From NCBI GenBank assembly GCA_021298655.1, contig JAJTFK010000017.1, forward strand, positions 1 through 37,951: a DNA stretch of 37,951 nt, in the 5' to 3' direction. The first letter of the stretch is position 1. Every line of letters starts with the position of its first letter. The notes under the pieces are model-generated. The model worked only from the letters and a program-made list of their open reading frames with translations, had not been told where the DNA came from and did no database searches. Source of the DNA: Cryomorphaceae bacterium (GTDB lineage: Bacteria > Bacteroidota > Bacteroidia > Flavobacteriales > Schleiferiaceae). Shown piece after piece: positions 3,007-7,647 of this stretch. Made by a program: the position numbers and the translations under genes.

Positions 3007-3022
3007 TCTTGCCTTGGGGGGC

Positions 3023-3030
3023 TACCTTTG
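3023..3030 (+). promoter_or_regulatory. -7 promoter element of the aldehyde dehydrogenase
   Basis: TACCTTTG is an exact TAnnTTTG match ending 20 bases before the ATG at 3051. It helps decide that ATG over an in-frame start at 3009, which would lie upstream of the promoter. Confidence 0.55.
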
Positions 3031-3050
3031 TGGCGTCAGTTTTTTCAACC

Positions 3051-4583
3051 ATGAGCACAACCCCCTCCTTTCTTCACGATCTTGGAATTCAGCACGACAA
3101 CGCGGGCACCTGGATCGGCGGTCAATCCATTGACAGCGCAGCATACCTAACCAGCTTCTCGCCGGTAGACGGCAACGTAATTGGCCGTGTTTCGGTAACC
3201 ACCGTAGAACAGTACCATAAGGCCATTGATTCCGCCCACGCCGCCTACCTGGATTGGCGAACGGTTCCCGCCCCCAAACGCGGTGAGGTGGTGCGCCAAT
3301 ACGGAAACCTTTTGCGCCAACACAAAGAAGCCCTGGGGGCTCTGGTAAGCTACGAAATGGGCAAGTCCCTGGCTGAGGGGCAGGGTGAGGTCCAGGAAAT
3401 GATCGACATCTGCGACTACGCCGTTGGTCTTTCTCGCCAACTCGCAGGCCTCACCATGAAGTCCGAGCGGCCGGACCACCTTATGATGGAGCAGTGGCAT
3501 CCCGTAGGCGTAGTTGGAGTTATTTCAGCCTTTAATTTTCCGGTTGCCGTTTGGGCATGGAACGCGTGTATTGCTTGGGTTTGCGGAAACTCCGTGGTGT
3601 GGAAGGCTTCCGAAAAAGTGCCTTTGTGCGCCGTAGCTTGCCAAATTTTATGGAACCGCGTAGCGTCCGAAAACCAGGTTCCCGCGGGATTATCGTGCAT
3701 TGTAACGGGCGGCGTCGACCTTGGGGTCCTGCTGTCTGAAGACACGCGAATTCCGGTAGTTTCTGCTACCGGTTCCACCCGAATGGGCCGCGAAGTTGGT
3801 CAAAAGGTGGCCGCCCGCTTTGGACGCAGCATTTTGGAACTGGGCGGAAACAACGCCATCATCGTAACGCCTTCCGCAGACCTTAAAATGACCGTTACGG
3901 CAGCGGTATTTGGTGCGGTGGGAACAGCTGGACAACGCTGCACCTCTACCCGTCGCTTGATTATCCACGAGAGCATCTTTGATAAAGTGCTGGACGCCAT
4001 CAAAAACGCCTACGGTCAACTAAAAATTGGCTCACCCTTGCGCGCGGAGAACCATGTGGGTCCGCTCATTGATCAAGATGCTGTGGCGATGTATGTCGCG
4101 GCACTCGATCGTGTTGAGGCCGCAGGAGGAAGCTTTCACCTTCGCGGCGGCGTACTGGAAGGACCGGAATACGCCAGCGGGTGCTACGTAAAACCTTCCA
4201 TTGCGGAAGTTGAAAATGACTGGTCCATTGTGCAGCACGAAACCTTTGCCCCGCTGCTCTACGTGATGAAGTACCGCGAGTTATCCGAAGCCATTAACCT
4301 GCAAAATGCCGTTCCACAAGGACTTAGTTCCGCAATTATGACCGGTTCGATGCAGGAGGCCCACCGATTCCTCAGTGCAGAAGGTTCCGACTGCGGTATT
4401 GCCAACGTAAACATTGGCACCAGTGGAGCCGAAATTGGGGGTGCTTTTGGTGGGGAAAAAGAAACGGGAGGTGGACGCGAAAGCGGTTCGGATTCCTGGA
4501 AGGCCTACATGCGCCGGCAAACCAATACCCTGAACTACGGCAGCGCCCTTCCGTTGGCGCAAGGCATCGTTTTCAACATTTAA
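3051..4583 (+). CDS. ALDH7-type aldehyde dehydrogenase (aminoadipate semialdehyde dehydrogenase-like)
   Basis: This 510-residue NAD(P)-dependent aldehyde dehydrogenase carries the catalytic cysteine in GTAGQRCTSTRR (about C297) and the general-base glutamate in SILELGG (about E263). The N-terminal cofactor-binding fold includes SAFNFPVAVWAWN. The C-terminal stretch GGEKETGGGRESGSDSWK and the following YMRRQTNTLNYG are hallmarks of the ALDH7/antiquitin group, which oxidises alpha-aminoadipic semialdehyde in lysine breakdown. That substrate is inferred from the family. An in-frame upstream start at 3009 precedes the promoter motif and adds a non-conserved tail, so I chose 3051. The AraC-type gene directly upstream may regulate it. 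No lysine aminotransferase is nearby. The gene has more A/T at third positions than gltX. Confidence 0.9.
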   Translation: MSTTPSFLHDLGIQHDNAGTWIGGQSIDSAAYLTSFSPVDGNVIGRVSVTTVEQYHKAIDSAHAAYLDWRTVPAPKRGEVVRQYGNLLRQHKEALGALVSYEMGKSLAEGQGEVQEMIDICDYAVGLSRQLAGLTMKSERPDHLMMEQWHPVGVVGVISAFNFPVAVWAWNACIAWVCGNSVVWKASEKVPLCAVACQILWNRVASENQVPAGLSCIVTGGVDLGVLLSEDTRIPVVSATGSTRMGREVGQKVAARFGRSILELGGNNAIIVTPSADLKMTVTAAVFGAVGTAGQRCTSTRRLIIHESIFDKVLDAIKNAYGQLKIGSPLRAENHVGPLIDQDAVAMYVAALDRVEAAGGSFHLRGGVLEGPEYASGCYVKPSIAEVENDWSIVQHETFAPLLYVMKYRELSEAINLQNAVPQGLSSAIMTGSMQEAHRFLSAEGSDCGIANVNIGTSGAEIGGAFGGEKETGGGRESGSDSWKAYMRRQTNTLNYGSALPLAQGIVFNI

Positions 4584-4910
4584 TCAATATCAAATTCCTT
4601 TTATAGTTTATATAGTATTGTCTGGTTAATAAGTAGAATAAGTTTTCGCAGATGAATTTGGATACTGGAGTTATACACGGTAGTTAACATGTTATCAACG
4701 AACTTTTATTAATTAACTTATTAAAAATCAATATATTATATTTAAACGCGCGCAAGCGAAGAAGGTAATTAACGAACGCACTGTACATAACTTATCTGAG
4801 GGTTGTTGGGGAAAACAAGGGGAAGTAATGAGCCCCGGGAGTTAATAATCGGAAGACCCAATGCAGTTACTACGAGTTATGAAGACCTTTGCAGCACTTA
4901 TTAACGCTTT
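4584..4910. other. AT-rich gene-free region, candidate replication origin
   Basis: This is the only gap over 300 bases without a gene. By hand count it is about 34% GC overall and about 15% GC in 4681-4740, against nearly 60% in typical genes here. The core 4704-4744 is almost pure A/T and could be an unwinding element. Sequences resembling the DnaA box TTATNCACA are TTATACACG (4671-4679, one mismatch), TTATGTACA on the minus strand (4782-4790, one mismatch), TTATCAACG (4692-4700, two mismatches), and TTTTCCCCA on the minus strand (4807-4815). Three parS-like palindromes lie 0.85-2.7 kb downstream around mnmG, a gene often found near origins. The boxes are weak and no perfect one is present, so this is a candidate only. 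It could instead be a long regulatory leader of rpiB. Confidence 0.4.
4884..4891 (+). promoter_or_regulatory. putative -7 element of rpiB-ybeY-mnmG
   Basis: GACCTTTG differs from TAnnTTTG by one base and ends 19 bases before the rpiB start, the same spacing as at gltX and the aldehyde dehydrogenase. Confidence 0.35.
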
Positions 4911-5357
4911 ATGAACATGACTTTATCTCTTGGCTCCGATCATGCTGGTTTCCCCTTAAAGGAAGCCATTAAGGCCCATTTAACGGATTTAGGCTACACG
5001 GTGCTGGACCGCGGAGCGTTTTCTCTGGATTCGGTAGATTATCCCGATCACGGGCACGCGGTAGCCAACGATGTGGAGCAGGGAAGCAGTTCCTTGGGTA
5101 TTGTGGTTTGCGGAAGCGGAAACGGCATCAATATGGCGGTTAACAAGCACGAAGGCATTCGCGGAGCTCTTTGTTGGTTGCCGGAATTAGCGGCACTTGC
5201 GCGCCAACACAACGACGCCAACGTCCTGGCACTGCCGGGTCGATTTATTAGTGAGTCCGTGGGTCTGGCTTGCGTTGATGCCTTTTTGGGTGCGCAGTTT
5301 GAAGGAGGACGGCACGCCACACGAGTAGCTAAGATTAACGGTGGGGATCGTTTTTGA
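4911..5357 (+). CDS. rpiB: ribose-5-phosphate isomerase B
   Basis: RpiB interconverts ribose 5-phosphate and ribulose 5-phosphate in the pentose phosphate pathway. The 148-residue protein is of normal length and begins with the family signature LGSDHAGFPLK. It carries the active-site cysteine in VVCGSGNGI and the phosphate-binding HNDANVLALPGRF stretch. A second ATG two codons in (4917) is an equally plausible start. It opens a cluster with ybeY (overlapping by 17 bases) and mnmG. The AT-rich region lies immediately upstream. Confidence 0.93.
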   Translation: MNMTLSLGSDHAGFPLKEAIKAHLTDLGYTVLDRGAFSLDSVDYPDHGHAVANDVEQGSSSLGIVVCGSGNGINMAVNKHEGIRGALCWLPELAALARQHNDANVLALPGRFISESVGLACVDAFLGAQFEGGRHATRVAKINGGDRF

Positions 5358-5778
5358 CATACCACGGGTATCCGGATTTAATCGGAAGATCACGGCTGCG
5401 TGGTTGAACCAGGTTGCGTTAACCGAAGGTGCGCGCCTAGACCGATTGAATTACAAGTCATTCAAGCGCGCAGAGATGATTGACCTCAATAATCGGTTTC
5501 TGCAGCACGATTACGACACGGATATTATTTCGTTTCCCGAAGCGGAAGCGCCGCATCCGATATCAGCAGACTTTGCGCTTGGATGGGATCAAATCAGGGA
5601 GCAAGCGACCGAAGTAAATGAAGCCTATTTACGGGAACTTCATCGCGTCATGGTTCATGGACTCTTGCACTGTTTGGGTTTTGACGACAAGTCCGACGAA
5701 GACCGCGCCGTTATGCGCGCTAAGGAAGACGAATATTTAAGTTTACACCCCGAGTGTTCCACGTGGAACAAGGCGTAG
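5341..5778 (+). CDS. ybeY: endoribonuclease YbeY, rRNA maturation factor
   Basis: YbeY is a metal-dependent RNase involved in 16S rRNA 3'-end maturation and ribosome quality control. The 145-residue protein contains HGLLHCLGFDD. Two metal-binding histidines of the H-x3-H-x5-H signature are present and the third position is Asp. I believe Bacteroidota YbeY proteins commonly have this variant, so it is not a sign of decay. The start used is GTG at 5341, overlapping the rpiB end by 17 bases, and no ATG fits the conserved N-terminus. The last codons overlap the first parS-like palindrome (5755-5770), and mnmG starts 4 bases after the stop. Confidence 0.9.
   Translation: MGIVFDIPRVSGFNRKITAAWLNQVALTEGARLDRLNYKSFKRAEMIDLNNRFLQHDYDTDIISFPEAEAPHPISADFALGWDQIREQATEVNEAYLRELHRVMVHGLLHCLGFDDKSDEDRAVMRAKEDEYLSLHPECSTWNKA
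5755..5770. other. parS-like palindrome 1
   Basis: TGTTCCACGTGGAACA is a perfect 16-bp palindrome that closely resembles the ParB-binding parS consensus TGTTNCACGTGAAACA. It lies in the last codons of ybeY, 12 bases before mnmG. Two further copies of its 14-bp core occur within the next 1.9 kb. ParB binding is inferred from sequence only; parA and parB are not in the window. Confidence 0.65.
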
Positions 5779-5782
5779 CACA

Positions 5783-7633
5783 ATGAAGTACGATGTAGTT
5801 GTTGTAGGTGCTGGCCACGCCGGAAACGAAGCCGCCGCCGCCGCTGCCAAACTTGGTGCGAAGGTTTTGTTGGTTACCATGAACATGCAGACCATTGGCC
5901 AAATGAGCTGCAATCCCGCCATGGGAGGTGTAGCAAAGGGACAGATCGTTCGGGAGATCGATGCTTTAGGCGGATGGAGTGGAATCATATCCGACAAAAC
6001 AGCCATCCAGTTTCGGATGCTCAACCGAAGCAAGGGTGCGGCAATGTGGAGCCCCAGGACGCAGAATGATCGTTGGAGGTTTGCCGAGGAGTGGCGCTTG
6101 ACTTTAGAATCCCTGGAAAACCTCGATTTTATTCAAAGCACGGTCGATGAAGTACTCTTAGATGGATCTCGCGTTCGTGGCGTGGTATTGCAAAGCGGGG
6201 AGGAAATACATTGCCACAAGGTCGTTTTGACGAGCGGAACCTTTCTGAACGGAATCATGCACATTGGCACTCGGCAAATGAATGGGGGCCGCAGCGCCGA
6301 AGGAAGCGCCCGCGGCATAACCTCCTGCCTTCAGTCCTTTGGTTTTGAGTCCGGGCGGATGAAGACGGGAACCCCGCCGCGCATTGATGGCCGCAGCCTG
6401 GATTATTCCAAATTTGAAATTCAAGAAGGCGACGAGAACCCCGGAACATTCAGCTATTGGGCGTCCAAGCCCCTAACGAAGCAACGCCATTGCTGGATTG
6501 CCCACACGTCCGAACAGGTACACGACGTTTTGCGCAGCGGTTTTGATCGCAGCCCACTGTTCAATGGGGCCATTCAGAGTTCCGGTCCACGGTATTGCCC
6601 CAGCATTGAAGACAAGATTAATCGGTTCGCCGACAAGACCAGCCACCAACTCTTCATTGAACCCGAAGGCTGGAACACGGTCGAAATGTACATCAATGGA
6701 TTTTCGACGAGCCTTCCAGAAGAAGTTCAAATACAGGCGCTTAGACAAGTTTCCGGCTTTGAACAAGTTCGCTTTTTTCGTCCTGGCTACGCCGTGGAAT
6801 ACGACTACTTTCCGCCCACCCAACTGAAGCACAGCCTCGAAACGAAACCGGTTGACGGCCTGTACTTTGCCGGCCAAATTAACGGGACCACGGGGTATGA
6901 GGAGGCGGCCTGCCAGGGTTTAATGGCGGGGATTAATGCGGCCCTGTCTTTAAATGGGCGCGACGCATTTATTCTGGACCGCAGCGAAGCCTATATAGGT
7001 GTACTAATCGACGACCTCATCACAAAAGGCACGGAAGAGCCGTACCGAATGTTTACGAGCCGAGCGGAGTTTCGATTAAGCCTTCGTCAAGACAACGCCG
7101 ACCGCCGGCTAACGCCCTTGGGCAGAGCGCTCGGCCTGGTGGATGATGTGCAATGGGCGTCTTTTGAGCAAAAAGAGCGGGATAGGTTCCACGTGGAACA
7201 ATGGATTGATGCGCAAACTACCGACCCCGAGGCTTGGAATGATTACCTCGAATCACAGGGTACCGCGCCCATTCGGCAAAAAGGCAGTCTTCGCGCACTG
7301 ATCTCCAGGCCCCAGTTGACCTTGGCCGGACTTCGGGCGCATGCTGCACAGGTTGAAGAGCCCCTGGTGGACGCGCTTGTTTGGGATCAGGTGGAAATAG
7401 ACGAAAAGTATCGGGGCTACCTAGAAAAGGAGCAGGAGCAGGTCGCAAAACTTAAGCGGCTTGAGTCGGTTCGCATTCCGGTGGATTTTGATTTTGAGAA
7501 AATAACCGCCCTAAGTATCGAATCGCGTCAAAAACTTAAGAAATTGAAACCCGAAACCGTTGGTCACGCAAGTCGTGTGTCCGGCGTTTCTCCAGCCGAC
7601 ATACAAATTCTACTCGTCCACCTTGGGCGGTAG
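5783..7633 (+). CDS. mnmG: tRNA uridine-5-carboxymethylaminomethyl modification enzyme MnmG (GidA)
   Basis: With MnmE, MnmG installs the carboxymethylaminomethyl group on U34 of certain tRNAs, using FAD and folate. The 616-residue protein begins with the FAD-binding VVVGAGHAGNEAA (GAGHAG at residues 9-14). It has the family signatures MSCNPAMGGVAKGQIV and TGTFLNGIMHIG, plus a second dinucleotide-binding region with YFAGQINGTTGYEEAA. The C-terminal helical domain is complete. The gene starts 4 bases after ybeY and forms one transcript with it. A parS-like palindrome sits just before, one within (7186-7199) and one just after the gene. Average GC (47% in one sampled line) is lower than in gltX or pgk. 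Confidence 0.97.
   Translation: MKYDVVVVGAGHAGNEAAAAAAKLGAKVLLVTMNMQTIGQMSCNPAMGGVAKGQIVREIDALGGWSGIISDKTAIQFRMLNRSKGAAMWSPRTQNDRWRFAEEWRLTLESLENLDFIQSTVDEVLLDGSRVRGVVLQSGEEIHCHKVVLTSGTFLNGIMHIGTRQMNGGRSAEGSARGITSCLQSFGFESGRMKTGTPPRIDGRSLDYSKFEIQEGDENPGTFSYWASKPLTKQRHCWIAHTSEQVHDVLRSGFDRSPLFNGAIQSSGPRYCPSIEDKINRFADKTSHQLFIEPEGWNTVEMYINGFSTSLPEEVQIQALRQVSGFEQVRFFRPGYAVEYDYFPPTQLKHSLETKPVDGLYFAGQINGTTGYEEAACQGLMAGINAALSLNGRDAFILDRSEAYIGVLIDDLITKGTEEPYRMFTSRAEFRLSLRQDNADRRLTPLGRALGLVDDVQWASFEQKERDRFHVEQWIDAQTTDPEAWNDYLESQGTAPIRQKGSLRALISRPQLTLAGLRAHAAQVEEPLVDALVWDQVEIDEKYRGYLEKEQEQVAKLKRLESVRIPVDFDFEKITALSIESRQKLKKLKPETVGHASRVSGVSPADIQILLVHLGR
7185..7200. other. parS-like palindrome 2
   Basis: The 14-bp palindrome GTTCCACGTGGAAC (7186-7199), followed by A, lies inside the mnmG coding sequence, where it encodes the residues FHVEQ. 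Maintenance of an exact copy within a coding region argues for a DNA-level function. Confidence 0.6.
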
Positions 7634-7647
7634 TTCCACGTGGAACA
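7632..7647. other. parS-like palindrome 3
   Basis: The core GTTCCACGTGGAAC at 7633-7646 fills almost the entire 16-base gap between the mnmG stop and the methyltransferase start at 7650. It could additionally affect read-through or translation of the next gene. Confidence 0.6.

Follow-up and report, generated by a model that had tools for sequence, protein, structure and literature searches.

In phyla other than Bacteroidota, the replication origin oriC commonly lies beside dnaA. In Bacteroidetes the two are described as commonly far apart (PMC4755523), and dnaA was not always a marker in the account of 12 gut bacteria, two of them Bacteroidetes, whose origins were placed from skew and clusters of parS (consensus quoted as TGTTTCACGTGAAACA; PMC10197239). 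In the Flavobacteriaceae, oriC was placed beside mnmG in Mariniflexile litorale, not at dnaA (PMC11278836), and likewise beside mnmG in Algorimicrobium (PMC12843772), both with Ori-Finder 2022 and skew. Ori-Finder uses indicator genes (PMC12843772), so that the mnmG label does not necessarily give the exact site. In a Blattabacterium endosymbiont, whose genome is reported to have neither dnaA nor DnaA boxes, the origin was set by skew in dapB (PMC2768785).

A mode of strand opening has been worked out in Bacillus subtilis, where DnaA binds two co-oriented boxes and extends onto 3′-GAT-5′ trios, bases one and two of each trio being captured and the third pointing away (PMC10721633, PMC8287927). 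The middle A is conserved and captured; residues Asn187, Arg202 and Glu228 bond the captured adenine and guanine, and their change to alanine causes a severe growth defect (PMC10721633). This arrangement, the basal unwinding system (BUS), was predicted in 1755 of 2070 species, with a rule of at least three trios 3′-NAN-5′ (PMC8287927). The main texts of these two papers contain no word starting with 'bacteroid', and our literature search on the DnaA-trio in Bacteroidetes found no paper. In searches judged from titles and abstract starts, no title among the matches listed names the site described below.

An AT-rich gap upstream of rpiB

The window analysed here, a stretch of 37,951 nucleotides, is the entire contig C4 of the 1.6-Mb genome of an uncultured Flavobacteriales bacterium (45 contigs, 97% complete). 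Between a gene for aldehyde dehydrogenase (3009-4583, plus strand, Pfam PF00171), which adjoins the gap in the genus, and rpiB (4911-5357, plus strand, PF02502) lies a gene-free block of 327 bp (4584-4910), which is very probably the chromosomal replication origin. The first-pass annotation had proposed it as a candidate oriC next to the rpiB-ybeY-mnmG cluster, and both its position and its composition stood up: GC content is 33.9% (58.7% for the window) and falls to 15.0% at 4681-4740. The adjoining genes, put near 60% there, are at 50-55% (aldehyde dehydrogenase 55.3, rpiB 53.2, ybeY 50.0, mnmG 53.5). Among 37,625 overlapping 327-bp windows, 37 are at least as AT-rich, and all of these start at 4554-4600 and therefore overlap the block. 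The block also holds an A/T-only run of 17 nt (4730-4746), longer than any other in the window. Origins carry an easily melted AT-rich stretch, and by nearest-neighbour stability both least stable 50-bp stretches of the 38-kb window lie inside or overlap the block. The second least stable one (4569-4618), overlapping and left of the trio-like tract described below, is the probable DNA unwinding element, and the least stable one (4697-4746), which includes the A/T run, is a second possible one. An Rfam scan of the gap gave no match up to E 1, and promoter and terminator scans gave nothing accounting for the block.

Instead of the four DnaA-box-like 9-mers with one or two mismatches announced by the first-pass annotation, the block contains six, all with exactly two mismatches to TTATCCACA and none with one, while a seventh overlaps the start of rpiB. 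Shuffled sequences gave 1.3 such matches. The looser core TTATNNAC likewise occurs six times, compared with 0.5 in dinucleotide shuffles of the same gap, a cluster of DnaA boxes beyond chance. Across 22 orthologous gaps, with the gap lengths of relatives chosen by hand, 75 copies of TTATNNAC were counted (shuffle mean 13.8, largest 24 in 200 shuffles); the surplus is not found in each gap (none in G034, one each in G028 and G022). Plain matching to TTATCCACA is useless by itself because matches across the whole window are not enriched (61 vs 57 expected). An alignment of 13 genus gaps displayed two patches, a conserved one towards the aldehyde dehydrogenase gene and a box-like one at window positions 4671-4700. 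The latter comprises the plus-strand boxes TTATACACG (4671-4679), where the three columns TAT are invariant, and TTATCAACG (4692-4700), in part conserved within the genus. Box matching further gave TTATGTACA (4782-4790, minus strand), TTATTAACT (4840-4848, minus), TTATTAACG (4898-4906, plus) and TTATGAACA (4909-4917, plus); the last overlaps the rpiB start codon, and its conservation may have coding reasons.

A conserved core associated with rpiB

The block contains an ordered core at 4610-4641, made of tandem boxes, a spacer and a trio-like repeat, which is new beyond the first-pass annotation. It lies in a conserved segment (4602-4646, plus strand) matched by R1, a sequence-only profile of 60 positions built from 21 relatives without this genome and run over 60 genomes. 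Read on the minus strand, the core consists of two abutting DnaA boxes, a short spacer and a repeat with a plus-strand T at each third base. In the B. subtilis system, the trio strand is the strand opposite to the TTATCCACA strand. On the rpiB strand, the relatives' consensus reads TAN TAN TAN TAN, two to three bases, then GGTTAATAN and NGTGNATAA, which on the opposite strand are the abutting DnaA boxes. In the window copy, a DnaA-trio-like tract ATA TAG TAT TGT (4610-4621, plus strand) is followed by the spacer CT, the inner box TTATTAACC (4624-4632, minus strand, three mismatches to TTATCCACA, including invariant columns of the 21 relatives) and the outer box TTATTCTAC (4633-4641, minus strand). 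The outer box is degenerate here, with four mismatches, and is TTATNCAC in the relatives' consensus. T is in register at 4613, 4616 and 4619 (three of four), the tract having been placed from the spacer and boxes alone.

The gapless alignment of the 21 relatives, which leaves out this genome, has invariant columns T16, T19, T22, T25, G31, T32, T33, A35, A46 and A47. All 21 relatives have T at the third place in each of the four triplets, and the middle base was A in 18, 15, 20 and 14 of them (67/84), otherwise nearly always G, hence a purine in 83 of 84 cases (21 relatives, four triplets each). Because our first regular expression demanded TAG/TAA repeats and would bias these counts, the sites were relocated from spacer and boxes alone in a leave-one-out search. 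The same site was recovered in 21 of 21 relatives without using the triplets, so the period-three T is not an artefact of site picking. At eight sites outside the model, T was in register in 28 of 32 triplets and the middle base was A in 14 of 32. This count retains L073, located with a small margin (11.0 vs 8.2), and leaves aside G039, which was put at a wrong site, L029, which scored 4.1, and L064, whose register is shifted (T 1/4); with these three it becomes 31 T and 18 middle A of 44. The element of G039 was recognised by eye only, the box-only search having put it at a wrong site.

In this genome, 4602-4646 is the sole R1 match at E ≤ 1 (E 0.0067); searched in the window with filters off, it reached E 1.5e-4 and the next match E 3.9. 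The scan scores preselected candidates (at most 91 per genome; here 55 of 55 were scored), and its strict filters miss some weak matches. At E ≤ 0.001, 23 of the 60 genomes matched, namely the 21 of the model, G008 and G040. Three held-out genomes, G008, G040 and G045, matched at E ≤ 0.01, the latter two beside rpiB and G008 at the aldehyde dehydrogenase end of a gap broken between contigs. Within the genus, the match is at the gap in 14 of 22 genomes (12 in the model, this genome and G008); six of the remaining eight have no rpiB match, and the contigs of G003 and G018 end at or within rpiB. Contigs of G008 and G003 (L103, L104, L284) break in the proposed origin, no more than 40 bp ahead of rpiB, the other half of G008 being on its contig C30. 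In other genera of the family, 8 of 15 genomes matched beside rpiB at E ≤ 0.01, all of them in the model. Weaker matches were obtained in G031 (0.067), G032 (0.10) and G030 (0.78); G023 and G025 have rpiB with no R1 match beside it, and no rpiB match was found in G026 and G036. Among 23 genomes of other families, only G040, G045 (E 0.007) and G049, the last in the model, matched beside rpiB at E ≤ 0.01. R1 therefore matches few genomes beyond the family, which indicates that the core drifts. In G027 a second match, elsewhere than the gap, reached E 0.013, so E values near 0.01 are convincing only when combined with position. R1 was also run on 30 of 80 named loci and matched eight, five of which are contigs of model genomes; in L064 (0.0097), L073 (0.16) and L060 (0.28), outside the genus, the match is about 400 bp upstream of rpiB. 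A weak match (E 0.5) at G025:C7:49297-49342, about 5.4 kb from a parS pair, is possibly a relocated origin of G025.

Ten contigs of the genus were compared and share, as far as each extends, the gene order gltX-folB-(araC)-aldehyde dehydrogenase-gap-rpiB-ybeY-mnmG-methyltransferase-holB-pgk; the comparison detected no araC gene in G013 or G015. A tRNA-Cys gene occupies 2061-2134 of the window, between folB and the araC-type gene. The window's mnmG (gidA; 5783-7633, plus strand, PF01134) is 84% identical to that of L008, a Schleiferiaceae bacterium, and close relatives such as this one place the genome in the Flavobacteriales. The mnmG gene was read as two pieces in G002 (C41:12724-14845, about 320 bp between) and G014 (C355:3054-4899), which may reflect an assembly error or an insertion. 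The gene to the left of the gap varies: the genus has aldehyde dehydrogenase there, G024 a MORN-repeat protein, and G039 and the Chryseobacterium-type loci pgk. The core stays with rpiB despite this change of neighbour and with parS/mnmG up to 43 kb off, aldehyde dehydrogenase being separated from the core by 8-9 kb in G035 and by about 29 kb in G024. Conservation in relatives, put forward as a check by the first-pass annotation, was borne out, since the gap, the DnaA-box surplus and the 60-bp core are kept beside rpiB in most family members tested. In mnmG-centred stretches of Xanthomarina, Bizionia, Lacinutrix, Formosa and Salinimicrobium (L015, L021, L027, L063, L080) rpiB is absent, and the origin position relative to rpiB may therefore differ in such genera.

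The distance between core and rpiB bears on a rival reading, in which the gap would be merely the AT-rich promoter or leader of the rpiB-ybeY-mnmG operon and the box matches a product of base composition. A promoter for rpiB is needed somewhere here, and there is one sigma-70-like match (4713-4742), a number at chance level (mean 1.1). However, the core is placed about 280-300 bp upstream of rpiB in the genus and about 350-460 bp in most other genera, with its repeat pointing away from the gene; the box cores exceed dinucleotide shuffles of this very gap; and, as detailed below, the skew minimum coincides with the core in three genera. We consider the promoter reading very improbable and retain that of an origin.

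GC skew, parS sites and dnaA

As this genome is in 45 contigs, chromosome-wide GC skew was followed in relatives, among them G024 (same family, one contig, 4.0 Mb). Twenty 20-kb stretches sampled along G024 put the switch from negative to positive skew at 2.5-2.7 Mb and the return switch at 0.7-0.9 Mb. Analysed in detail over 180 kb, cumulative skew is lowest at 2,580,820, 155 bp from the core, next to rpiB (2,579,777-2,580,199, minus strand), while mnmG with a parS pair is at 2,623-2,625 kb and dnaA at 1,013 kb. For G035 and G033, stretches of 200 kb were chosen around rpiB before any look at skew, and their minima lie 108 bp (G035) and 117 bp (G033) from the core. These three genomes represent three other genera of the family, and their mnmG/parS regions lie 43, 19 and 15 kb from the core, respectively. 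In G039, from another family, the 80-kb minimum (1,457,211) falls at the pgk edge of the gap that separates pgk (1,456,045-1,457,226) from rpiB (1,457,801), where 16 sampled stretches also change skew sign. Distances of about 100 bp overstate the precision, because the left gene diverges from rpiB (in G024, G039 and Chryseobacterium-type loci) and itself makes local skew change.

Among 72 named Flavobacteriales loci, 14 had no rpiB in the stretch; in 58 of the 58 scored, 4-kb skew was negative to the left and positive to the right of the gap, a pattern due in part to divergent gene pairs (random positions: mean 24.9, largest 37 of 58). Over the whole 21.8 kb, the minimum fell at most 500 bp from the gap in only 17 of 58. 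In G049, which carries the core (E 1.4e-8), skew is weak and reaches its minimum 19 kb away. In G047, skew is irregular, with a change near mnmG/parS (541 kb) and none at rpiB (122 kb). With rpiB off the skew change in G047 and without a core in G025, rpiB was rejected as a universal origin marker.

Within the genus, minima fall left of the gap, at -1.6 kb from the rpiB start in the window (whose 4.9 kb to the left of rpiB are too short for local skew), -1.6 in G002, -2.5 in G012, -4.1 in G013, -4.2 in G015 and -14.9 in G005, which is 1.3-14.6 kb from the core; the left flank of G014 is too short. The skew check suggested by the first-pass annotation thus had a mixed outcome, positive in G024, G035 and G033 and, at the gap edge, in G039, and negative in the genus contigs and G049. 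Third-position skew was tried as a cleaner measure and rejected as the contigs disagree: relative to the core, it is lowest 4.5 kb to the left in G013 and G015, 12 kb to the left in G012 and 5.7 kb to the right in the window, and G005 and G002 have no minimum.

A second rival reading keeps the origin in this neighbourhood but has replication start at another point a few kb away, left of gltX for instance, or in the parS/mnmG segment. The minima 1.6-4.2 kb left of the rpiB start in five of six usable contigs (14.9 kb in the sixth) speak for this, as do the parS sites at mnmG, the skew change of G047 and the naming of mnmG as oriC neighbour in Flavobacteriaceae (PMC11278836, PMC12843772), a label which, given the indicator genes, need not be the exact site. 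Against it, the minimum follows the rpiB gap and not mnmG/parS in G024, G035 and G033, this genome has no second R1 match at E ≤ 1, and where the skew of the genus is strongest, in G013 and G015, the offset minimum coincides with the gltX start, where genes switch from minus to plus strand. Plus-strand gltX, folB and aldehyde dehydrogenase may carry positive skew in the genus. G035 has the same three genes 8-16 kb out, with side and strand unchanged, and keeps its minimum at the core; in G024 they are 29-39 kb out on that side, with aldehyde dehydrogenase on the other strand. Initiation at another nearby site is very unlikely in our judgement, and parS/mnmG as the origin itself was rejected for the family on the basis of the skew minima of G024, G035 and G033. 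Initiation at the rpiB gap remains the favoured reading.

The parS sites agree with an origin in this region. Sites of this kind resemble TGTTTCACGTGAAACA and cluster near origins, and all three exact copies of GTTCCACGTGGAAC found in the genome lie in the window, 0.85-2.7 kb from the gap: 5756-5769 in the end of the ybeY frame, 7186-7199 within the mnmG reading frame and 7633-7646 at the mnmG stop. The first starts 846 bp from the block, matching the 0.85 kb previously given. Apart from these, the search of the genome gave a single near copy, with one mismatch (C29:22183-22196, G000, L005). Of the 60 genomes, 49 have at least one copy of GTTNCACGTGNAAC, mostly one to three and up to nine. Three parS sites also occur in G010, G020 and G001 and two in many other relatives, several of which have a pair at both ends of mnmG.

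An oriC at dnaA, the arrangement familiar from other phyla, is almost certainly not what this genome has. Its dnaA is on another contig, C14, where no R1 match was reported, in agreement with the first-pass annotation's view that the origin is often not beside this gene in the phylum. G024 carries dnaA at 1.01 Mb, and 1.57 Mb separate the gene from the skew minimum; such a separation is usual in Bacteroidetes (PMC4755523). The G024 gene (C1:1013173-1014567) is near the plus-to-minus skew change, on the terminus side.

Comparison with Bacillus strand opening and other described origins

The core was examined with the published BUS rule. The inner box TTATTAACC, with three mismatches and a 2-bp spacer, falls within the limits for a DnaA box (at most three mismatches, within 16 bp of the trios), but two of the four triplets of the window copy have the middle A, fewer than the at least three 3′-NAN-5′ trios of the rule, so this copy is not classed as a strict BUS member. 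It is the weakest of the matched genus copies, with boxes of three and four mismatches and two strict trios. Among the 21 model relatives, 19 have at least three strict trios of four, three in a row in 13 of these. The core at 4610-4641 probably works as a BUS-like opening module, judging by its likeness to the B. subtilis one.

The residues that hold the trios in B. subtilis are altered. The genome's own DnaA aligns with 8btg_A (E 1.2e-102), the numbering of which fits the B. subtilis residues of PMC10721633, and carries Gln for Asn187, Val for Arg202 and Val for Glu228, with Ile190 and Ile193 unchanged. Across the DnaAs of 14 Flavobacteriales genomes, V, I, L or A stands in place of Arg202, V, A, I or S in place of Glu228, and Q (13) or R (1) in place of Asn187. 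Two of these DnaAs (G047 and G054) come from genomes without a recognised core beside rpiB. Chains 2z4r and 1l8q, which we take to be the Thermotoga and Aquifex DnaAs, retain Arg and Glu at the Arg202 and Glu228 positions. The box-reading motif is DHATV in 12 of the 14 genomes, DHSTV in G054 and NHTTV in G047, and DHTTV in 8btg_A (L154 for our DnaA, L146-L159). The boxes here are relaxed at positions 5-6 (TTATNNAC).

By analogy with B. subtilis, DnaA would bind the two abutting boxes at 4624-4641, in minus-strand orientation, with more DnaA on the boxes at 4671-4917, and its oligomer would extend leftwards onto the plus strand of the period-three tract (4610-4621). The unstable stretch 4569-4618, where the oligomer would run, would then melt, helicases would load, and two forks would leave, one towards rpiB and one towards aldehyde dehydrogenase. 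ParB bound at the parS sites (5756-7646) would let ParABS pull the new origins apart.

We tentatively raise the possibility, which we regard as somewhat doubtful, that Flavobacteriales origins are opened by a re-registered DnaA-trio: the grip on guanine and middle adenine would be lost (Arg202, Glu228, Asn187), the tract would have changed to T then purine at every third base, and DnaA would grip a different triplet base or the opposite strand with its fixed A. The link between DnaA residues and triplets is a correlation within one order, and the period-three repeat may also be kept for easy melting alone. If the changes of DnaA pocket and triplet do belong together, they would offer a natural test of DnaA's choice of strand and base, present knowledge of which, in the papers concerned, comes from B. 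subtilis and the purified DnaAs of six other species, none of them Bacteroidota (PMC10721633, PMC8287927). The proposed origin places a defined core in a group where dnaA is no marker, and a small profile finds the same site in relatives within the family, which is of use for growth-rate estimates from metagenome read depth and for the correct orientation of such genomes.

Compared with ParABS systems, the locus is alike in its exact palindromes GTTCCACGTGGAAC close to the proposed origin, and differs in the small number of sites (mostly 1-3 per genome), which are partly within reading frames. Like the mnmG-associated oriC of Flavobacteriaceae, from the same order, it is not at dnaA (as in Mariniflexile) and agrees with skew in some relatives, with mnmG 0.9 kb from the block in the window; unlike them, the core here goes with rpiB, mnmG being 15-43 kb off in G024, G035 and G033, and the accounts of the Mariniflexile and Algorimicrobium origins describe no core sequence (PMC11278836, PMC12843772). 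It shares with the B. subtilis BUS a pair of DnaA boxes that abut in the same orientation, followed after a short spacer by a period-three repeat and an unstable stretch, and in the relatives' consensus the outer box is closer to TTATCCACA, as in the predicted tandem BUS boxes (PMC8287927). It differs in that the fixed base is T at the third place, which B. subtilis DnaA leaves uncaptured, and not the middle A, and in that the equivalents of Asn187, Arg202 and Glu228 are replaced in 14 of 14 DnaAs. Taken from their sequences, the proposed origin core and its DnaA together look like a variant of the strand-opening system known from Bacillus.
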